DNA of 64,000 bases from Paracoccaceae bacterium (GTDB lineage: Bacteria; Pseudomonadota; Alphaproteobacteria; Rhodobacterales; Rhodobacteraceae). Under the pieces are notes generated by a model. That model did not search any database, was not told the origin of the DNA, and worked only from the letters and a program-made list of their open reading frames with translations. The stretch spans positions 248,001-312,000 of the forward strand of contig QWDA01000001.1 of NCBI GenBank assembly GCA_003605175.1. Direction: 5' to 3'. The position numbers were made by a program, and so were the translations under genes. Every line of letters begins with the position of its first letter. The stretch's first letter is position 1. This document shows positions 53,437 to 61,728 of the stretch, piece after piece.

Positions 53437-55008
53437 TTACGCGCCGGTGACGGTGGACCAGTCGAGGCCGAAGCGGGCGAGGTACTTGCGCAGGCGGTCG
53501 GCGTCGTTCTGGCTGGTGCGGCGGGCGCGGGAGACCGCGAAGAGGCTGCGGCCCGCGGCGCTGAGCGAGGCGGCGTGGCGGCAGGTGCGGATCGTCTCGG
53601 CGAGCTGCACGCGGTCGAACGGGTCGATCTCGGCGGCCGCCTCGCCCAGCACGTCGCGGAGGAGGCGCGCGTCGTCGTCGGAGGCGGCGCCCTGCCACAT
53701 GGCGCGCAGGGTCTCGATCTCGGCCTCGACGATGGCGCGGGTGATGCGGCCGCGCGGCGCGAGGGTGCAGAGCCGCTGCACCGAGCCGCCAAGGTCGCGG
53801 AAATTGCCGGGCCACTGGGTGCCCGGGTCGCGGGCGAAGCGCAGAAAGGCCTCGGCGGCGTCGGCGTTGAAGCCGATCCGCGCGCCGAGCAGCTTTTCCG
53901 AGCGGTCGAGCTCGTGGAACAGGTTCGGCTCGATGTCCTCGGGCCGTTCGCGCAGGCCGGGAAGGGCGAAGCTCCAGAGGTTCAGGCGCGACAGGAGGTC
54001 GGGGCGGAAGGTGCCGGCGGCGGTCATCGCGACGAGGTCGCGATTGGCGGCGGCGATGACCTGAAAGCGGCTGGTGACCTCGTGGTCGGAGCCGAGAGGG
54101 TAGTAGCGCCCGGTCTCGATGGCGTGGAGCAGGATCGCCTGTTCTTCCAGCCCCAGTTCGTCGATCTCGTCGAGGAACAGGACCCCGCCATCGGCCTCGC
54201 GCAGGAGCCCGCTGCGCTCGGAGCCGGGCAGGCCCGTGTGGCTGCGGCGCTGGCCGAAGAGGGTGGGGAGCGCGGCACCGCCCCGGAGCGTGGCGCAGTT
54301 GATCTGCACCAGCCGCCCCTTCACCCGCCGCCGTTGCAGCTTCAGCTCGTAGATCCGCTGCGCCAGTTCGGTCTTGCCGGTCCCGCTGGCGCCGAGCAGC
54401 AGGATCGGCGCGTCGGAGGCGGAGGCGACCAGTTCGATCCGGTCGATCAGCGCGTTATAGGCGGCGTTGCGGGTGGCGATCCCGCCCTTGAGCAGGTCGC
54501 TGTATTCCCGAGCCAGCACGTCGAAGCGCTGTTGCAGCGCGTTGTAGCGGCTGAGGTCGAGGTCGATCACGTCCATCGTCGGCCCGGTCTCGTCGCTGCG
54601 CGGCGGGCCGGTCTGGATGAGGCGCGCGGGAACGTGGCGGCTCTCGGTCAGCAGGAACCAGCAGATCTGCGCCACATGGGTGCCGGTGGTGAGGTGGACG
54701 TGGTAGCGCTCGCGATCCTCGTCGAAGCCGTAGCCCCGGGCGAAGTCGAAGAGCTTGCCGTAGACTTCCTGGAAATCCCAGGGGTTGGCGAGGTCGAGCC
54801 GGACGAGGCGCACCTCCGCCTCGGGACGAAGCTCGGCGATTTCCCGGGTGACGTGCTGGGCGAGGCGGGCATGGCGCTGGTCGTAGAGAAGCTCCAGCCG
54901 GTCCACCGGGAAACCCTCATGGGCGAAGAGCGAGACGGTGGGTTTCCAGCGCCGTTTCCGGCCCATGTCGAGTTGAGTGCCGAGGAAGCCGATGACGACG
55001 TTGCGCAA
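53437..55008 (-). CDS. rtcR: RNA-repair operon regulator RtcR
   Basis: This is a 523-residue activator. The N-terminal CARF-like sensor (about 1-180) starts RNVVIGFLGTQLDMG and has HVHLTTGTHVAQICWFLLTE. The AAA+ domain has Walker A GASGTGKTE (about 205-213) and Walker B GGVLFLDEIDEL. The C-terminal helix-turn-helix has NDADRLRKYLARFGL, a close match to E. coli RtcR. The sigma54-contact loop, usually GAFTGA, reads SHTGLP here (256-261). The start is TTG at 55008. It is divergent from rsr. In other species RtcR senses an RNA-damage ligand through the CARF domain and switches on RNA repair genes. Confidence 0.92.
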   Translation of the reverse strand: MRNVVIGFLGTQLDMGRKRRWKPTVSLFAHEGFPVDRLELLYDQRHARLAQHVTREIAELRPEAEVRLVRLDLANPWDFQEVYGKLFDFARGYGFDEDRERYHVHLTTGTHVAQICWFLLTESRHVPARLIQTGPPRSDETGPTMDVIDLDLSRYNALQQRFDVLAREYSDLLKGGIATRNAAYNALIDRIELVASASDAPILLLGASGTGKTELAQRIYELKLQRRRVKGRLVQINCATLRGGAALPTLFGQRRSHTGLPGSERSGLLREADGGVLFLDEIDELGLEEQAILLHAIETGRYYPLGSDHEVTSRFQVIAAANRDLVAMTAAGTFRPDLLSRLNLWSFALPGLRERPEDIEPNLFHELDRSEKLLGARIGFNADAAEAFLRFARDPGTQWPGNFRDLGGSVQRLCTLAPRGRITRAIVEAEIETLRAMWQGAASDDDARLLRDVLGEAAAEIDPFDRVQLAETIRTCRHAASLSAAGRSLFAVSRARRTSQNDADRLRKYLARFGLDWSTVTGA

Positions 55009-55185
55009 GGTTTCGTATCCATTTTGATAATAGGCGATACACAGATATCGTTAACACTGTTCCCGGTTCGGCAACAGGGGGATTTTCTCGTTATTAATCA
55101 ACAGCTTGTTCTGTTTTTCACTTTTTCGGGTCCGGACCCGCGAATCCCGTCACAAAGCCGGTGTTCGAAAGAAGGAACGAGAGCA
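55009..55185. promoter_or_regulatory. rtcR-rsr divergent control region
   Basis: This 177-base stretch is clearly AT-richer than its surroundings. It must hold the promoters of rtcR and the rsr-Y RNA-rtcB unit. I looked for a sigma54 -24/-12 site (TGGCAC, five bases, TTGC) on both strands and did not find a convincing one. ATATCGTTAAC and GTTATTAATCAAC are candidate AT-rich elements. rsr is preceded by GAAGGAACGAGAG. Confidence 0.45.
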
Positions 55186-56739
55186 ATGGCAAACAAATCC
55201 GTGTTTGCATCGATCAGGGGCCGGCTGCTTCCGCGGGCCGATGCGACGAACGCCCACGGGGCGCCGGCCTACGCCTATGACGATGCCCATGCGCTCGCCC
55301 AGCTTGCCGTGACCGGCACGTTCGGCGGGAGCTTCTACCAGGCGGCCGAGGAGGAGCTGGAGCTCGTCCTGATGGTGGCCGATGCCGTGGAGGCCGATTT
55401 CCTCGCGAAGGCGGCGATCTACGCGCGGCAGAAGGGGTACATGAAGGACATGCCGGCAGTCTTGCTGGCGGTGCTCGCGCGGCGCGATCCGGTGCTGTTC
55501 CGGCGCGCTTTCGGGCGGGTCGTCGACAATGGCAAGATGCTTCGGACCTTCGTGCAGATCGTCCGTTCGGGGCAGACCGGGCGCAAGTCGCTCGGCTCGG
55601 CGCCGAAGGCGATGGTGGCCGACTGGCTGAACCGGGCGTCCGACCGGGCGATCGTGAACGCCTGTGTGGGCAACGATCCGTCGCTCGCCGACGTGATCCG
55701 GATGGTGCACCCGAAACCGGCCTCGCCGGAGCGGGAGGCGCTGTTCGCCTGGATCGTCGGGCGGCCGTGTGACGTGGCGCTCCTGCCGCAGGCCTTGCGC
55801 GACTGGCTGGTCTTCAAGGAGACCGGCAAGGGCGCGGTGCCGGAGGTGCCGTTCCAGATGCTGACGCAGCTGGAGCTCAGCACGCGGCACTGGGCGCGGA
55901 TCGCGCGGAACGGGTCGTGGCAGATGGTGCGGCAGAACCTGAACACCTTCCGTCGGCACGGCGTGTTCGGCGTGGCGAAGGAGGTGGCGCTGGTTGCGGA
56001 GAAGCTGCGCGATGCGGAGCGGATCCGGGCGGCGAAGGCCTTCCCGTACCAGCTCATGGTTGCGGCCCAGAACCTCGACCCGGAGATGCCGGGCGAGATC
56101 CGCGAGGCACTGCACGACGCGATGGAGATCGCGGTCGCGAACGTGCCGAAGGTCGCGGGCCGGGTCGTGGTGGCGCCGGACGTGTCGGGCTCGATGACCT
56201 GGCCGGTCACGGGCTACGGGCGCGGCAAGGTGTCGGCGGTCCGTCACGTGGACGTGGCGGCGCTCGTCGCGGCGGCGATGCTTCGGCAGAACCGCGGCGC
56301 GCGGGTGATGCCGTTCGACTTCGACGTGCGGGACGTTCGGCTGGAACCGCGCGACACGATCCTGACCAATGCCGGGAAACTGGCATCGCTGGCAGGGGGC
56401 GGCACGACGGTGTCGGCGCCGCTCGCCCGGCTGAACCGCGAAGGCGCGGCGCCGGACCTGGTGGTGATCGTGTCGGACAACCAGTCCTGGGGCGACGCCC
56501 GGGGCGGTCCGGCAACGGCGCTGATGCGCGAATGGGAGCGGCTGAAAGGCCGCAACCCGGGCGCGCGGCTGGTCTGCCTGGACATCGCGCCCTACGGCAC
56601 GAGCCAGGCGAAGGGCCGGGAAGACGTGCTGCTTGTCGGCGGCTTCTCGGATGCCGTGTTCGGCCAGATCGCCGATTTCGCGGAAGGTCGCTCGGGTGCC
56701 GGGCACTGGATGCGGGAGATCGAGGCGATCGAGTTTTGA
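55186..56739 (+). CDS. rsr: TROVE-domain Ro60 orthologue (Rsr)
   Basis: This is a 517-residue Ro/TROVE protein. HEAT-like repeats of the TROVE ring fill about 15-320 (GGSFYQAAEEELELVLMVAD at its start, then FLAKAAIYARQKGYMKDMPA). The C-terminal vWA domain has an intact MIDAS motif D332-x-S334-x-S336 in VAPDVSGSMT, and VIVSDNQSW. Ro60 rings bind Y RNAs on the outside and misfolded RNA ends in the centre. It is directly followed by five Y-RNA-like genes, as expected for partner RNAs. Confidence 0.95.
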   Translation: MANKSVFASIRGRLLPRADATNAHGAPAYAYDDAHALAQLAVTGTFGGSFYQAAEEELELVLMVADAVEADFLAKAAIYARQKGYMKDMPAVLLAVLARRDPVLFRRAFGRVVDNGKMLRTFVQIVRSGQTGRKSLGSAPKAMVADWLNRASDRAIVNACVGNDPSLADVIRMVHPKPASPEREALFAWIVGRPCDVALLPQALRDWLVFKETGKGAVPEVPFQMLTQLELSTRHWARIARNGSWQMVRQNLNTFRRHGVFGVAKEVALVAEKLRDAERIRAAKAFPYQLMVAAQNLDPEMPGEIREALHDAMEIAVANVPKVAGRVVVAPDVSGSMTWPVTGYGRGKVSAVRHVDVAALVAAAMLRQNRGARVMPFDFDVRDVRLEPRDTILTNAGKLASLAGGGTTVSAPLARLNREGAAPDLVVIVSDNQSWGDARGGPATALMREWERLKGRNPGARLVCLDIAPYGTSQAKGREDVLLVGGFSDAVFGQIADFAEGRSGAGHWMREIEAIEF

Positions 56740-56796: not shown

Positions 56797-56909
56797 CTCG
56801 GCGAATGCCGGTGGAACTACAGGTCATCCGAAAGGACGGGGTTCGTGTCCCCAACCGTCGCATGAGGCGAAAGCCGCGGCGGAAGTTTCACCACCGACTT
56901 GTCGTCGAG
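56797..56909 (+). ncRNA. Y-RNA-like gene 1
   Basis: The 5' CUCGGCGA pairs with the 3' UCGUCGAG over 8 bp, then CGGUGG with CCACCG, leaving the bulged AUGC/ACUUG between. This matches the Ro-binding stem of bacterial Y RNAs (GNCGAAUG with UUGNCG). Inside is a T-arm-like hairpin, GGGG-UUCGUGU-CCCC (56838-56852), but no clear D arm. The shared box GGAACUACA follows the stem, as in all five copies. Length is about 113 bases. Confidence 0.82.
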
Positions 56910-56928
56910 ACCGAAATGAAAGGAAACT

Positions 56929-57054
56929 CCCGGCGAATGCCGGCGGAACTACATCCTAATCTTCGTGTCGCGGGTTCGAGCCCCGCCGTGCCCACGGGCG
57001 CGTAGCTCAGTCGGTAGAGCAGAAGCAGCGTTTCGCCAAACCCTTGTCGCCGGG
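56929..57054 (+). ncRNA. Y-RNA-like gene 2 with permuted tRNA mimic
   Basis: The outer stem is CCCGGCGA/UCGCCGGG; the inner stem is GGCGGAAC/GUUUCGCC. The enclosed part reads, in order, a T arm (GCGGG-UUCGAGC-CCCGC), the 3' acceptor strand CGUGCCC, a 2-base turn, the 5' acceptor strand GGGCGCG (7 bp), UA, then a D arm (GCUC-AGUCGGUA-GAGC). That is a tRNA with its halves swapped, the Ro-binding stem replacing the anticodon arm, as known for YrlA-type Y RNAs. The 3' end lies 11 bases before the phosphoesterase ATG. Confidence 0.9.
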
Positions 57055-57065
57055 GCTCTAGAACG

Positions 57066-57539
57066 ATGACGGACTTCGTAACAGGCTGCACCCATTTCGG
57101 GCACGCCAACATCATCAATCTCGCGAACCGCCCGTTCGCCTCGGTCGACGAGATGGACGCGGTCCTGATCGAGAACTGGAACGCGGTCGTGCGCGCGAAC
57201 GACACCGTCTACCATCTTGGCGATTTCGCCTGGCGGGACGGCGATGGAGAGGCATATGCCGCCCGGCTGAACGGACGGATCGTTCGATTGCAGGGCAATC
57301 ACGACCCCAGGGGCTGGGGCGTCGATTATCTCCGCGTGCGCCACGACAAGATGCGCGCGGTCCTGTTCCACTATCCGATCGAGGAGTGGGACGGGTGGTA
57401 TCGCGGCGCGGTGCACCTGCACTGCCACACCCACAAACCCGAGTTCGTCTCGGGGGAGCGGCGCGGCAATGTCGGCGTAGATGCGACCGATTTCACACCG
57501 ATGCGCCTTTCGGAGACGATTGGGAGACTGACGAACTGA
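57066..57539 (+). CDS. Calcineurin-like metallophosphoesterase within the Y RNA array
   Basis: This 157-residue phosphoesterase shows the family blocks GCTHFGH (7-13), TVYHLGDF (Asp53), LQGNHD (75-80), LFHYPIEEW and HLHCHTHK. The first block normally reads DxH; here Cys8 takes the Asp position. It has no ribosome site of note: the Y RNA 2 stem ends 11 bases before the ATG. It sits between Y RNA genes 2 and 3 and upstream of rtcB. A role in trimming 2',3'-cyclic phosphate or 3'-phosphate RNA ends, which would tune RtcB substrates, is an inference. Confidence 0.85.
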   Translation: MTDFVTGCTHFGHANIINLANRPFASVDEMDAVLIENWNAVVRANDTVYHLGDFAWRDGDGEAYAARLNGRIVRLQGNHDPRGWGVDYLRVRHDKMRAVLFHYPIEEWDGWYRGAVHLHCHTHKPEFVSGERRGNVGVDATDFTPMRLSETIGRLTN

Positions 57540-57550
57540 AAAGGATAGGG

Positions 57551-57687
57551 CGTCTGGCGAATGCCGGTGGAATTACAGGTTTGCAACACCCGAGGTTGCG
57601 GGTTCGAATCCCGTCGCGCCGACCAATGACGGCGCGTAGCTCAACGGATAGAGCGCGTAGCATTTCACCCCCACTTGTCGCCAGACG
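57551..57687 (+). ncRNA. Y-RNA-like gene 3 with permuted tRNA mimic and internal ACCA
   Basis: The outer stem CGUCUGGCGA/UCGCCAGACG is 10 perfect pairs; the inner stem is GGUGGAA/UUUCACC. Inside are a T arm (GCGGG-UUCGAAU-CCCGU), the acceptor strand CGCGCCG directly followed by ACCA, then AUGA, the 5' acceptor strand CGGCGCG (7 perfect pairs), UA and a D arm (GCUC-AACGGAUA-GAGC). The ACCA at the tRNA 3'-end position is encoded inside the RNA. Length is 137 bases. Confidence 0.9.
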
Positions 57688-57706: not shown

Positions 57707-57839
57707 GATCCCGGCGAATGCCCGAGGAACTACATGCGCACCTTCCCGGTGCTCCGTGGGGTTCGACTCCCCACCTTGCAGGCGCCCTCTGGCATGGGCG
57801 GGACCCGGGGTCGTTTCTCGTAACCTTGTCGCCGGGATC
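57707..57839 (+). ncRNA. Y-RNA-like gene 4, diverged tRNA module
   Basis: The outer stem GAUCCCGGCGA/UCGCCGGGAUC is 11 perfect pairs; the inner stem is CGAGGAAC/GUUUCUCG (8 pairs). The T arm GUGGGG-UUCGACU-CCCCAC has a standard 7-base loop. The acceptor-like pairing CGCCC/GGGCG is short, and GACC-CGG-GGUC stands where the D arm should be. Length is 133 bases. It keeps the Ro-binding signature but has drifted from tRNA. Confidence 0.85.
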
Positions 57840-57850
57840 GTCCTGAACAT

Positions 57851-57920
57851 TCGGCTGGAGCCCAGTCGGCAGAGCGCCCGACCAACCGAGTTGTCGCGGG
57901 TTCGAGCCCTGCCAGCCGTA
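57851..57920 (+). pseudogene. Degenerate linear tRNA-like element
   Basis: Unlike the Y RNAs, this 70-base element is in normal tRNA order: acceptor CGGCUG/CAGCCG, D arm with loop AGUCGGCA and one stem mismatch, then a T arm GCGGG-UUCGAGC-CCUGC. The anticodon arm is missing: bases 57880-57895 instead fold as GAC-AAC/GUUGUC with a 3-base loop. No CCA follows. No Ro-type stem flanks it. It is either a tRNA relic, perhaps a source of the Y modules, or a decoy RNA. Confidence 0.6.
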
Positions 57921-57939: not shown

Positions 57940-58023
57940 CCCGGCGAATGCCGGCGGACGTACAGGGGCCGTGTCGGGCTTCGGCTGCGCGGCGAGATGG
58001 TTCGCCCCATTCTTGTCGCCGGG
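57940..58023 (+). ncRNA. Y-RNA-like gene 5, short form
   Basis: The outer stem CCCGGCGA/UCGCCGGG and inner stem GGCGGAC/GUUCGCC carry the same bulge (AUGCC against UUCUUG) as the other four. The interior is a simple hairpin region (GCCG...CGGC) without T or D arms. Length is 84 bases. It resembles minimal Y RNAs and lies 21 bases before the rtcB start. Confidence 0.8.
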
Positions 58024-58044
58024 AGACAATAGTGAGTGGAAACG

Positions 58045-59448
58045 ATGAGTGAAGAGAACCAACTGGACCCCGTCACCGGGGCGCATCTGAAGGAATGGGG
58101 CCATCGGCCCGGGCCGCAGTTTCCGGCGCTTCTGGCGCGGGCGAATGCGTTGCGGGCGGAGGGTTTCGGGCTGGTGAAGATCCGCCAGGTGCTGGAGCCC
58201 GAGATCCCGCCGCCGCCGGTGACGCAATCCCTGCGTCCGGCGGGGGAGCTGGCGTTCCACGCCAATATCGACGCCGAGGCGCCGGACGAGACCCTCAATG
58301 TCGAGAAGGTCCGCGAGACGATGGCTCAACTGATGCGCGTGCCGACCATCGAGGCCGGCGCGATCATGCCCGATGCCTGCCCGGCCGGCCCGGTGGGGAC
58401 GATCCCGGTGGGCGGCGTGGCGGCGGCGCGGAACGCGATCCATCCGGGGATGCATTCGGCCGATATCTGCTGCTCGGTGATGATCTCCGACCTGGGCGAC
58501 GTGGACCCGAAGGCGGTGCTCGACGCGGCGCAGGGGGTGACGCATTTCGGGCCCGGCGGGCGGCCGAAAGGAGCGGTCTGGGGCGCGCCGGTGGAGATCG
58601 CCGCGGCGATGCGCGAGAACCCGTTCACCGCGGGCGAGAAGACCACGCGCATGGTGGACAGCCATTTCGGTACCCAGGGCGACGGCAACCATTTCCTGTT
58701 CGTCGGCCGGTCGCGGGCGACGGGGCGGGTGGCGATGGTCACCCATCACGGTTCGCGCGGGCCGGGTGCGATGGTCTACAAGGCCGGGATGGCGGTGGCC
58801 GAGCGGGTGCGGGCGGAGATCTCGCCCGAGACGCCGAAGCAGAACGCCTGGATTCCGGCCGACACCGAGGAGGGGCGGGATTACTGGGCGGCGTTGCAGC
58901 TGATCCGCGCCTGGACCAAGGCGAACCATGAGGCGATCCATGACCGCGCGGCGGCGGCCGCCGGAGCCGAGGTCGCGGACCGGTTCTGGAACGAGCACAA
59001 CTTCGTCTTCGAGCGCGACGGGCTCTACTATCACGGCAAGGGCGCGACCCCGGCCTGGGGGAGCTATGCCGCCGATGCGACGGGGCTCACGCTGATCCCG
59101 CTCAACATGGCGCAGCCGGTGCTGGTGGTGAAGGGCAAGGACGCGAAATCGGCGCTCGGATTCAGCCCGCACGGGGCGGGGCGCAACTTCTCGCGCTCGG
59201 AACACAAGCGGCGGATGGGCGGCATGACGCCCGACCAGGCGCTGAAGGCCGAGACCGAGGGGCTCGACGTGCGGTTCCATGCCGGGAGCGTGGACGCCTC
59301 CGAGCTGCCGTCGAGCTACAAGAACGCGGATGCCGTGGTGGCGCAGATCGGCGCCTACGGGCTCGCCGAGATCGTCGACTATATCGACCCTTACGGCTGC
59401 ATCATGGCGGGCGATATCCCGCCCTTCTGGCAGAAGAAGAAGCGGTAG
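58045..59448 (+). CDS. rtcB: RNA-splicing ligase RtcB
   Basis: This is a 467-residue RtcB that joins 2',3'-cyclic phosphate or 3'-phosphate RNA ends to 5'-OH ends using GTP. Metal-site residues are in SADICCSVM (Asp140, Cys143; the family usually has DIGCGM), GDGNHFLFV and THHGSRGPG. The guanylylated His is His376 in SPHGAGRNFSRSE. The ATG at 58045 is preferred over a GTG 9 bases earlier. Y RNA 5 ends 21 bases upstream. rtcA, the usual partner, is not in the window. Confidence 0.94.
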   Translation: MSEENQLDPVTGAHLKEWGHRPGPQFPALLARANALRAEGFGLVKIRQVLEPEIPPPPVTQSLRPAGELAFHANIDAEAPDETLNVEKVRETMAQLMRVPTIEAGAIMPDACPAGPVGTIPVGGVAAARNAIHPGMHSADICCSVMISDLGDVDPKAVLDAAQGVTHFGPGGRPKGAVWGAPVEIAAAMRENPFTAGEKTTRMVDSHFGTQGDGNHFLFVGRSRATGRVAMVTHHGSRGPGAMVYKAGMAVAERVRAEISPETPKQNAWIPADTEEGRDYWAALQLIRAWTKANHEAIHDRAAAAAGAEVADRFWNEHNFVFERDGLYYHGKGATPAWGSYAADATGLTLIPLNMAQPVLVVKGKDAKSALGFSPHGAGRNFSRSEHKRRMGGMTPDQALKAETEGLDVRFHAGSVDASELPSSYKNADAVVAQIGAYGLAEIVDYIDPYGCIMAGDIPPFWQKKKR

Positions 59449-59526: not shown

Positions 59527-61728
59527 TCAGTCCGCGCGCGGAAGGAAGATGCCGTTGATCATCACGCCGTCTTCCGCGAAGTCCACGTCGACCTCCGGCG
59601 CGTTCGCGGGCGCCATTTCCATTTGGCCGGCCAATTGTCCCATTGGCTGGCTGTTCTCGGCGAAGTGGAAATAGGAGCAGAAGAGGCCGCCAGGGCGGAA
59701 CACCCGCAGGGCCCGGCGCAAGGCTCCGGATTCCCGATCGAGCCGCGCCCGCAGGCCGTCCGGCAAGCTGTCCGTCTCCTGCGCCAGCCGCCCCAGGAGC
59801 GCATCGGCATAGCTCATGGCGTCGGAGGTCATCGGCACGCCGCGCGCCGCCGCCTCGACGAGGTATTCGGCGACCGCGACGACCGTGCCGTCGTCGCCGC
59901 TGCCCTGCCGCCAGAGCTGCTCGGCCCAGAGCACCGGGCCGTCGGGAAGATGCGGAAACCAGTCGGCCAGATTGTGCAGCCATTCGCCGATCAGGTCGAG
60001 CCGGTTGGCCCGCAGGAGCACCGTCGCGGCGATGGTCGCCGCCAGCGGCGAGGCCCGCTTGCCCGCCACGAGATCGCGCAGTTCGGCGGCGTCCTCCAGC
60101 CGGTCAAGGGCGCCGCGCCAGTCGGCGGTCTGGTATTTGCGCCAGATCCCGGCCGCGCGGGCCAGCGGCGACATCCGGTCGCCGTCCCAGGGCACCGCGT
60201 CGAGGGACAGGATCCGGGGCTCCGACCCGAGGCTCATGGTGACGTCCAGGTCGAACCCGGTCTTTCCCGAACCGTCGCGGGGCAGGACGACGCCGACACC
60301 GCCCCGGCCGAAATCGCTCAACTGGAGCCAGTGCCCCCGAAGGTCATATTCGTCGATGATCAGCCGGATCCGGTAGGTCGCGTGGCTCTGGCTGTCGGGG
60401 GCGAAGGTCTCGCTGCGGTCCACGCGCAGCACGCGGATGCGGGCGGGATCGACCCAGGTGCCGCCCTCCAGCGCCGCGACCCTCAGGGAGCCGGAAAACA
60501 GCGCGGTCACGCTTTCATGGCCGAAGAGCCGGTGGCCGACGCCGAAATCCTGCGCCCATCCCGCGGCCTGCAGGGCCGGGTCGTCGAGCTCCTGGCGCTC
60601 GCGGATGTCGGGGGTTCCGTCGTCCTGCCCGCCGAGCGCGGCCTTCAGGTAATGCGCCAGCGCGTCGGTGGCATTGGAGGACCGGTAGGCCTCGAACCCC
60701 CCGCCATCGCCCGCCGGTGCGACCTCGAACGCCTCCTCCTCCGCCAGGTCCAGCTCGGTGACCACGCCGTCGACGTCGTGCTCCATCAGGGGCGTCACGT
60801 CCTGCACCGCGTTGGAGCCGCTCTTCCTGATCAGCGCCGGCACCCGGAAGCGGACGAAGGGAAACAGGTTGAGAAAGCGGATGCTGCCCCGGCCCTGGTC
60901 GCCGGGCACCGCGATGTTCGCGGCGCGGAGGCCTTCCAGCAGGGCCTGGCCGAAGATCGTCTCGCCGTCCTGCGCGCGCTTCGGCTGCCAGGCTTGTTTC
61001 GAAGCGGTGGTGGCGTTCAGCACGGCGTCGAAGGCAATTTCCTGGTAGGTCTTCCGGCTCGGTTCCACGTTCAGGATATTGGTGCCGTCGAACTTCTGCT
61101 CCCGGAGCGCCTGGGCATCGTTGCGGCAGGCGTCGAGGAAATAGTACCGCACCCCCACCTTCACCGATTTCATTCCCATGCGGATGTTGAGCGAGCTGAT
61201 CGCGTCGTTGATATCGGCGTATTGATCGTTGCCGAGGTAATCGCTGGGCAGGAGCATCTGGTTCTGCACCGTCGACTGGATGCCATGGCCGCTGAAGAAG
61301 AAGATCGCGCGGGACCGGCTTTGCGCCGCCGGCGGCAGTGCGTCGGGCGCGCTGGCCCAGGCGCGGATCGCCTTGCGGCAATTGTCGAGCGTCGGTTCGA
61401 GGATGTTGTCGCCGACCTCCGGCGCGAAGGATCTTTCGTCCGCCGTGGGCGCGGCGAGGAGCCAGGCGCGCGCGAGCGGCGCGGAGGACATCCGGTATTC
61501 CTTCTCGAGCCAGTGCAGCATGCGCCGCGCGGTGAGGGCGGAGACATAGAGCTGGCCGAGCGAGATCGCCTCGCGCATCCACGGGTCGGTGCCCGCCACC
61601 GGGGCCGCGCCGTCCTTGAGGTGCCGGTAGGCGCTGACGCCGATCAGGACCGCGAAGGTCGCGGGCGAGGTTCCGTCCCAGTCCGAGTCGGCCCAGTAGC
61701 CGGCCGTGTCGGAGGGTTGCAGCGCCAT
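59527..61728 (-). CDS. Caspase-like (C14) peptidase
   Basis: This is a 733-residue protein. The N-terminal caspase-fold domain (about 20-300) has the catalytic His148 in FFFSGHGIQS and Cys201 in YYFLDACRND, the two signature sites of metacaspase-like enzymes. The remaining 430 residues are unassigned and contain a possible beta-rich module (FDLDVTMSLGSEPRILSLDA) and a helical end; they may sense a trigger or hold a substrate. It starts 2 bases after the hydrolase stop, so the two form an operon transcribed toward rtcB. Confidence 0.85.
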   Translation of the reverse strand: MALQPSDTAGYWADSDWDGTSPATFAVLIGVSAYRHLKDGAAPVAGTDPWMREAISLGQLYVSALTARRMLHWLEKEYRMSSAPLARAWLLAAPTADERSFAPEVGDNILEPTLDNCRKAIRAWASAPDALPPAAQSRSRAIFFFSGHGIQSTVQNQMLLPSDYLGNDQYADINDAISSLNIRMGMKSVKVGVRYYFLDACRNDAQALREQKFDGTNILNVEPSRKTYQEIAFDAVLNATTASKQAWQPKRAQDGETIFGQALLEGLRAANIAVPGDQGRGSIRFLNLFPFVRFRVPALIRKSGSNAVQDVTPLMEHDVDGVVTELDLAEEEAFEVAPAGDGGGFEAYRSSNATDALAHYLKAALGGQDDGTPDIRERQELDDPALQAAGWAQDFGVGHRLFGHESVTALFSGSLRVAALEGGTWVDPARIRVLRVDRSETFAPDSQSHATYRIRLIIDEYDLRGHWLQLSDFGRGGVGVVLPRDGSGKTGFDLDVTMSLGSEPRILSLDAVPWDGDRMSPLARAAGIWRKYQTADWRGALDRLEDAAELRDLVAGKRASPLAATIAATVLLRANRLDLIGEWLHNLADWFPHLPDGPVLWAEQLWRQGSGDDGTVVAVAEYLVEAAARGVPMTSDAMSYADALLGRLAQETDSLPDGLRARLDRESGALRRALRVFRPGGLFCSYFHFAENSQPMGQLAGQMEMAPANAPEVDVDFAEDGVMINGIFLPRAD

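Follow-up and report, generated by a model that had tools for sequence, protein, structure and literature searches.

A YrlA-Type Y RNA with the Layout of a Complete Circularly Permuted tRNA and an Encoded CCA in an Alphaproteobacterial RNA-Repair Cluster

Introduction

Bacterial Y RNAs of the YrlA type imitate the D, T, and acceptor arms of tRNA and are modified by DusA and TruB (PMC8394870). According to the literature, the Y stem is the part by which such RNAs bind Rsr, and a role of Y RNA as a tether between Rsr and PNPase has been described (PMC4726728). In Salmonella, RtcR binds tRNA halves, and the tRNA-like domain of YrlA was proposed by the authors as a possible competitive inhibitor of the nuclease (PMC7790460). 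Neither an encoded CCA, nor an anticodon arm, nor tRNA genes in the operon are mentioned for the YrlA system in the titles and abstract openings surveyed, the primary YrlA papers lying outside the scope of the survey. Here we compare with these systems an RNA-repair cluster of a Paracoccaceae bacterium (contig QWDA01000001.1). The window, that is, the whole stretch of DNA analyzed, is 64,000 nucleotides long, and all coordinates refer to it.

Results

The RNA-Repair Cluster

The cluster has the gene order rtcR, rsr, Y RNA 1, Y RNA 2, an ORF, Y RNA 3, and Y RNA 4, followed 3' of Y RNA 4 by a tRNA-like stretch, Y RNA 5, and rtcB. Its features are as follows.

53437..55008, minus strand: rtcR, CARF-domain sigma-54 activator, divergent from rsr (Pfam RtcR, 242.6 bits)
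55186..56739, plus strand: rsr, Ro60 orthologue (Pfam vWA_Ro60, 47.4 bits, and TROVE, 30.6 bits, both over cut-off)
56798..56911, plus strand: Y RNA 1 (RF02553, 28.3 bits, below gathering score)
56930..57056, plus strand: Y RNA 2, YrlA (RF02553, 77.4 bits, threshold 69)
57066..57539, plus strand: 157-aa phosphoesterase-like ORF between Y RNAs 2 and 3 (phrog_547, 135.8 bits)
57551..57687, plus strand: Y RNA 3, YrlA-type, predicted complete circularly permuted tRNA cloverleaf (RF02553, 73.3 bits)
57711..57838, plus strand: Y RNA 4 (RF02553, 34.8 bits, below gathering score)
57851..57920, plus strand: decayed copy resembling tRNA-Asn, between Y RNA 4 and Y RNA 5 (RF00005, 28.8 bits, just under the gathering score of 29)
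57941..58025, plus strand: Y RNA 5 (RF02553, 24.9 bits, below gathering score)
58036..59448, plus strand: rtcB, RNA ligase (Pfam RtcB, 126.9 bits, over cut-off; phrog_1075, 292.9 bits)

The rtcR product scores 685 bits against NF038308, above the cut-off, and in 79 of the 80 related loci the gene immediately upstream of rsr encodes RtcR. The rsr product also matches phrog_850 (RNA-binding protein) and scores just 67 bits against the NCBIfam Rsr model, the cut-off of which (900) is far above; the matches of the rtcB product to the NCBIfam RtcB models likewise lie under their cut-offs. Among the motif matches listed, none with up to three mismatches falls 5' of rsr at positions 55000-55185, where a sigma-54 promoter would be expected, and the whole window contains 88 matches to the motif compared with a shuffle mean of 117. 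Only Y RNAs 2 and 3 of the five pass the Rfam YrlA threshold (69 bits). The acceptor of Y RNA 2 is closed and devoid of CCA, and there is no anticodon arm in the register tested. The phosphoesterase-like ORF, which has no match in Pfam or NCBIfam and is present in 2 of the 80 related loci, is possibly an added RNA-end enzyme.

Two further observations concern the neighborhood and the spread of rsr. A caspase-domain gene (59527-61728; Pfam Peptidase_C14, 34 bits; PADLOC caspase, 35 bits) is convergent with rtcB; the 80 related loci, not all of them long, yielded none. A whole-genome search with the TROVE family, which gave matches in 15 of 390 genomes of the order and in 8 of 299 of the phylum, has no match to the window's own rsr, although hmmscan finds this gene over the cut-off; these tallies therefore undercount rsr.

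Structure of Y RNA 3

The similarity of Y RNA 3 to the YrlA family (RF02553) extends over positions 57554-57687 and exceeds the gathering score of 69; together with the rsr neighbor and the T/acceptor/D-like domain, it places this RNA among the YrlA RNAs. Against model R1, of which the window sequence is itself a part, it scores 131 bits. Its arms follow in the order T arm, 3' acceptor strand, ACCA, AUGA, 5' acceptor strand, and D arm, and its elements, numbered where applicable by tRNA position, are as follows.

57554..57559, plus strand: 5' strand of the basal stem, pairing with 57679-57684 (two-sided changes in 4 of 6 pairs)
57566..57572, plus strand: 5' strand of the upper Y stem, GGUGGAA, pairing with 57663-57669
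57578..57592, plus strand: anticodon arm, with GGU (29-31), loop UUGCAAC, ACC (39-41), and CG (42-43)
57598..57614, plus strand: T arm GCGGG-UUCGAAU-CCCGU, read directly and parsed
57615..57621, plus strand: 3' acceptor strand CGCGCCG (66-72)
57622..57625, plus strand: ACCA (73-76)
57626..57629, plus strand: AUGA, remainder of the acceptor loop
57630..57636, plus strand: 5' acceptor strand CGGCGCG (1-7), forming 7 of 7 acceptor pairs
57639..57654, plus strand: D arm GCUC-AACGGAUA-GAGC
57656..57657, plus strand: nucleotides 27-28, CG, pairing with 42-43 (57591-57592)

A UA dinucleotide separates the 5' acceptor strand from the D arm, and the anticodon-like loop contains U33, the anticodon GCA, and A37. 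The original prediction, made from the sequence of this RNA, had described the same arm order with seven acceptor pairs, a UUCGAAU T loop, and ACCA at the place of a tRNA 3' end, and it proves correct base by base, the T stem being GCGGG/CCCGU. The view taken there, that the RNA mimics a tRNA in circularly permuted order and encodes CCA where the 3' end would be, also stands, and the CCA is kept in a whole class of relatives. A possible cut just before the 5' acceptor strand, as suggested there, is compatible with the sequence data. The account was incomplete, as it had missed the anticodon arm, the neighboring decayed tRNA-Asn copy, and the tRNA genes of related operons.

The 137-nt RNA folds better than its shuffled versions (z = -3.45; none of 200 shuffles as good). 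In the ViennaRNA minimum (-49.4 kcal/mol), the acceptor stem and the anticodon hairpin are kept and the T and D arms are mispaired; the cloverleaf, when enforced, has -42.8 kcal/mol, so that the mispaired T/D fold is preferred by 6.6 kcal/mol. The proposed cloverleaf rests on covariation in relatives and not on the ViennaRNA prediction.

Acceptor Loops in Related Loci

The best 80 of 412 rsr relatives, many of them from metagenome assemblies, and the window constitute 81 rsr loci, in which we scanned for permuted T-acceptor-D domains. There are 121 such domains (110 distinct) in 71 of the 81 loci, and the acceptor loops of the distinct domains are of three kinds: closed (2-4 nt, 44 domains), self-pairing (13), and open (the rest). 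Of the 66 distinct domains whose loop is 5 nt or longer, 32 have CCA at tRNA positions 74-76, and CCA-type domains occur in 36 of the 81 loci; at any other loop offset it is found in 0 to 4 of the 66 domains, and loop composition predicts it at 2.7% per place, the test being one that ignores the kinship of the loci. Of 50 unstructured loops in domains with at least six acceptor pairs, 42 have C74, 41 have C75, and 42 have A76, and the top base at position 77 reaches only 38%. In 498 related domain pairs, identity is 0.74 at positions 74-76 versus 0.28 elsewhere in the loop, again irrespective of kinship. Judged from these sequences, the internal CCA at 74-76 is not due to chance. The bases flanking it also resemble those of a tRNA end: 31 of the 32 CCA-type domains have a purine as N73, and immediately before the 5' acceptor strand the loop ends in U in 21, A in 8, C in 3, and G in none of them, compared with 11 of 34 long CCA-less loops that end in G.

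CCA-type RNAs are missing from 35 of the 71 loci with permuted domains, and their presence requires at least 11 changes on the Rsr tree (constructed without locus L127, which has a stop in the reading); hence this type of RNA is not essential to the system. Culturable relatives that have one include Thalassococcus halodurans DSM 26915 (L061) and Aliiroseovarius halocynthiae MA1-10 (L066). A search of 398 genomes of the phylum with model R1 gave matches at E <= 0.001 in 239, those below about 60 bits looking like tandem tRNA genes. Eleven R1 loci of other genomes (about 60 bits or more) were inspected: five have the CCA type, all in the same class; three outside that class have none, and all three have anticodon arms; in the remaining three the scan finds no domain.

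Anticodon Arm

Upstream of the T arm, at a spacing corresponding to a 5-nt tRNA variable loop, 28 of the 32 CCA-type RNAs can form the 29-31/39-41 pairing around a 7-nt loop, compared with at most 2 of 32 in eight shifted registers. Y RNA 3 shares with permuted tRNA genes the 3'-half-first order joined at the acceptor and, by this register test, a complete cloverleaf when un-permuted. The counts for U33 (27 of 32), purine 37 (29 of 32), and pairing of 27-28, the two bases after position 26, with 42-43 (30 of 32) are by themselves less telling, since shifted registers score up to 22, 25, and 19, respectively. The 29-31/39-41 stem is also found in 9 of 42 closed domains and 11 of 29 other long-loop domains. 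As the register of the anticodon stem is kept, the Y stem interrupts an otherwise complete permuted cloverleaf between nucleotides 28 and 29, and for Y RNA 3 this architecture is close to certain.

When a complete arm is taken to need all three pairs, pyrimidine 33, and purine 37, complete cloverleafs are present in 44 of 103 distinct domains (7 of the 110 with fewer than six acceptor pairs were dropped), namely in 27 of 32 with CCA versus 17 of 71 lacking it (Fisher p = 1.4e-8). For a second set, which covers phages, plasmids, and one other genome and was gathered partly with the CCA pattern, thirty matches of at least 60 bits were taken from the R1 list (the window, L194, L191, L008, and L014 being left out), and five in which the scan finds no domain were dropped, two of which, in L473 and L419, do show NCCA. 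This set was scored more laxly (variable loop of 4-6 nt allowed, purine 37 not required) and has a complete arm in 6 of 8 domains with CCA versus 3 of 17 (p = 0.01); both p values ignore kinship. Otherwise complete anticodon arms of L077, L092, L116, and L511 have C33 in place of U33, and such loops could be nuclease-resistant or nuclease-trapping.

The structure of 34 pairs was drawn from the window sequence and is hence favored over its slid versions; in an alignment of 28 Y RNAs (4 of the 32 CCA-type RNAs were dropped, two longer than 150 nt and two without an end motif), 97.6% of its 899 cells are paired, compared with 40-49% for the slid versions, and two-sided changes occur in 22 of the 34 pairs. 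Acceptor pair 1-72 is countable in 6 of the 28 rows because of gaps, and the D stem is invariant. The lower figure for the anticodon stem (82.8% paired) probably arises because MAFFT shifts its columns in some rows. ARAGORN was rejected as a proof of the cloverleaf: it calls all 32 un-permuted sequences, but it still accepts 26-32 of them when the register is wrong and 16-23 when the halves are swapped.

That the domains are an artefact, tandem tRNA genes or chance hairpins being mistaken for a permuted tRNA, is suggested by 15 of 55 distinct domains among the matches listed from phage contigs and a few plasmids, which overlapped ARAGORN tRNAs and were set aside. In the rsr loci, 36 of 38 CCA domains lie between both Y RNA end motifs, and ARAGORN calls none of the 32 in native order; with the covariation, these data largely refute this explanation, and it is hardly credible.

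Anticodons and tRNA Identity

A complete cloverleaf, an encoded CCA, and a ligase gene in the cluster would also suit a gene that encodes a functional tRNA in permuted form, in which case the Y stem would be excised at 28/29 and the RNA circularized by RtcB, linearized by RNase P and trimming, charged, and used in translation; algal permuted tRNAs mature via a circle (PMC3978253). The identity elements of these RNAs do not match the anticodon beyond chance. N73 agrees with the amino-acid identity of the anticodon in 14 of 27 cases, two isotypes without a reference being scored as disagreement, compared with a shuffled mean of 11.5, and 387 of 2000 shuffles are as high; with agreement at chance level, a decoy fits better than a working tRNA. 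For instance, Y RNA 3 combines A73 with the cysteine anticodon GCA, and tRNA-Cys has U73 in the two genomes examined.

Moreover, anticodons differ between close relatives. Across 73 pairs of RNAs whose bodies are alike (mean identity 0.86), identity at positions 34-36 is only about 0.60, as it is at 32 and 38, and the values for positions 33 and 37 are 0.74 and 0.86. Seven RNAs sharing an ACA/UGU stem show ACG, GUG, UUG (two), CUU, GUU, and CAU. U35 is found in 31 of 44 complete-arm Y RNAs, a count that ignores kinship, and in 5 of 29 and 6 of 25 tRNA species of two genomes, these species being taken from the best-scoring tRNA genes, among which the longer class II is mostly absent. None of the genome's 31 distinct tRNAs seen is notably close to Y RNA 3 as a parent, the best being those for Pro and Met. 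As far as the sequence tells, the class of Y RNA 3 is not a working tRNA, and a permuted tRNA gene is a very improbable explanation.

tRNA Genes between rsr and rtcB

Where RtcB is encoded downstream, which is the case in 65 loci (the other 16 of the 81 were excluded), ARAGORN finds 59 tRNA genes in the 68,146 bases between rsr and rtcB and 12 in the 887,255 bases outside this interval, which is about 60 times less dense. The operon genes occur in 39 of the 65 loci (L050-L113), every one on the operon strand, and belong to Asn(GUU) (21), Gln(UUG) (14), Lys(UUU/CUU) (11), and Pro(UGG/CGG) (12), with one unclear. In genome G594, they are 83% (Asn), 71% (Gln), and 63-65% (Pro) identical to the other tRNAs of the same isotype seen. 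When Y RNAs are compared with the tRNAs of their own operons, the anticodon is the same in only 3 of 23 cases.

The window has no intact tRNA gene between rsr and rtcB. The decayed tRNA-Asn-like copy has the linear order and a degenerate anticodon arm, is not called by ARAGORN, and is 78% identical to the operon tRNA-Asn of a relative versus 67% to the genome's own tRNA-Asn.

A joint reading would make the operon a stocked response to tRNA damage, with decoy Y RNAs (mostly U35) that would draw anticodon nucleases away, spare tRNAs for Asn, Gln, Lys, and Pro from the genes between the Y RNAs in many relatives, a resealing ligase, and a CCA class whose acceptor loop RNase P and trimming would open to expose a true CCA end, as in two-piece tmRNA. 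We put it forward tentatively and consider it rather unlikely as a whole.

Phage Y RNAs

Phage contigs hold both closed and CCA-type Y RNAs; their counts, which cover the matches listed, are a collection and not a rate, one viral search pattern having required CCA itself. Four IMG/VR contigs (L387, L439, L306, and L451; 183-424 kb) encode several Y RNA-like RNAs each, two of them of the CCA type in L387, and others have short closed acceptor loops. Two short records labeled as E. coli and Salmonella phages (L190 and L191) contain rsr, YrlB, and YrlA and are likely host DNA.

The sequence of L172, a Y RNA from a phage, resembles a permuted tRNA-Met down to the CAU anticodon, and the nearest tRNA in the same contig is tRNA-Met. 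This likeness suggests capture of a real tRNA. If the permutation was recent, as we take it to be, ancestral leftovers are plausible, and the ACCA and anticodon loop could be such leftovers in a body that serves as an ordinary tether, merely joining Rsr to PNPase (RYPER). Tethering is the published role in Deinococcus (PMC4726728, PMC8394870), and it could explain a tRNA-like body without a decoy role. However, leftovers should decay evenly, yet 74-76 and the anticodon-stem pairs are kept amid changes in nearby loop bases and in the nucleotides that make up the acceptor pairs; we regard this explanation as unlikely. Permuted RNAs, according to a review, arise from tandem copies losing their outer halves (PMC3978253).

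Discussion

Function of the tRNA Mimic

By sequence and covariation, the body of Y RNA 3 is a complete circularly permuted tRNA with the Y stem between 28 and 29 and with the acceptor end closed by a loop that starts with the tRNA 3' sequence N73-CCA. In the mechanism that we propose, Rsr would hold this whole-tRNA mimic in an RtcR-controlled tRNA-damage operon, and the mimic would show tRNA-binding enzymes a full cloverleaf with an anticodon loop varying by species. Its likeliest use, which we infer from among several, would be that of a decoy or competitor for nucleases cutting tRNA anticodon loops; a full cloverleaf with a changing anticodon loop fits the published competitor idea better than enterobacterial YrlA does. 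For this main reading as a whole, that is, a whole-tRNA mimic with a decoy role and possible opening of the loop, we estimate a probability of about 0.45.

The kept RCCA suggests that the acceptor end matters too in the CCA class. RNase P and 3' trimming could open the acceptor loop and produce a CCA-ended two-chain acceptor, as in permuted tmRNA. An alphaproteobacterial permuted tmRNA is encoded in the same genome (RF01849, 298.8 bits), and its acceptor loop, read by eye, consists of ACCA and 22 nt ending in ACCAU before the 5' strand GGGGCCG; in Y RNA 3 also, NCCA directly follows the 3' acceptor strand of the permuted precursor. For the Orientia tmRNA, northern blots and read coverage support a cut within the acceptor loop (PMC7335160), and CCA is encoded in 32 of the 33 tRNA genes seen in our genome. 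The same arrangement in tmRNA, the Orientia cut, and the CCA-encoding tRNA genes make opening of the Y RNA loop plausible, and we give about even odds that the loop of the CCA class is opened in this way. Some CCA loops have only 5 nt (ACCAU) and may be too tight for RNase P.

The RNA could instead stay at full length, its ACCA loop and anticodon arm imitating tRNA for binding only, so that it acts as a competitor or docking handle for tRNA enzymes, for example, modification enzymes, without cleavage by RNase P. Many relatives indeed have closed or self-pairing loops, some of them with an anticodon arm, and in Salmonella YrlA fragments were not detected during tRNA cleavage (PMC7790460). The Salmonella result concerns another class, since enterobacterial YrlA (L190/L191, analyzed by hand) has a closed acceptor and no anticodon arm that could be placed. 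An uncut mimic leaves unexplained why RCCA is retained at exactly 73-76 while the remaining loop drifts, and we find it doubtful.

Comparison with Known Systems

Y RNA 3 shares with YrlA (RF02553; Salmonella YrlA) the rsr/rtcB context, a Y stem with conserved ends, and the T-acceptor-D order. In the RF02553 consensus and in the YrlA of L190/L191, the acceptor is closed, CCA is missing, and an anticodon arm could not be placed, whereas the CCA class has RCCA and mostly a full anticodon arm. With the two-piece tmRNA (RF01849), it has in common the permuted order and acceptor strands joined by a loop starting with NCCA; the tmRNA carries a tag-coding region and no anticodon, and Y RNA 3 carries a Y stem and an anticodon arm.

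The permuted tRNA genes of red and green algae and of Thermofilum pendens also place the 3' half first, with an intervening sequence at the acceptor, and both T. pendens examples encode CCA, one of them with an intervening sequence of 1 nt (PMC3978253). These genes give working tRNAs via splicing, whereas in the Y RNA class the identity elements do not track the anticodon and the Y stem is located at 28/29.

By its sequence, Y RNA 3 is a CCA-bearing YrlA variant, a complete permuted tRNA mimic in an operon type that often contains tRNA genes. A class with the whole cloverleaf makes the question of tRNA imitation testable, through the anticodons shown, the nucleases met, and loop opening by RNase P, and it represents a second kind of permuted tRNA-like RNA in alphaproteobacteria, beside the permuted tmRNA.
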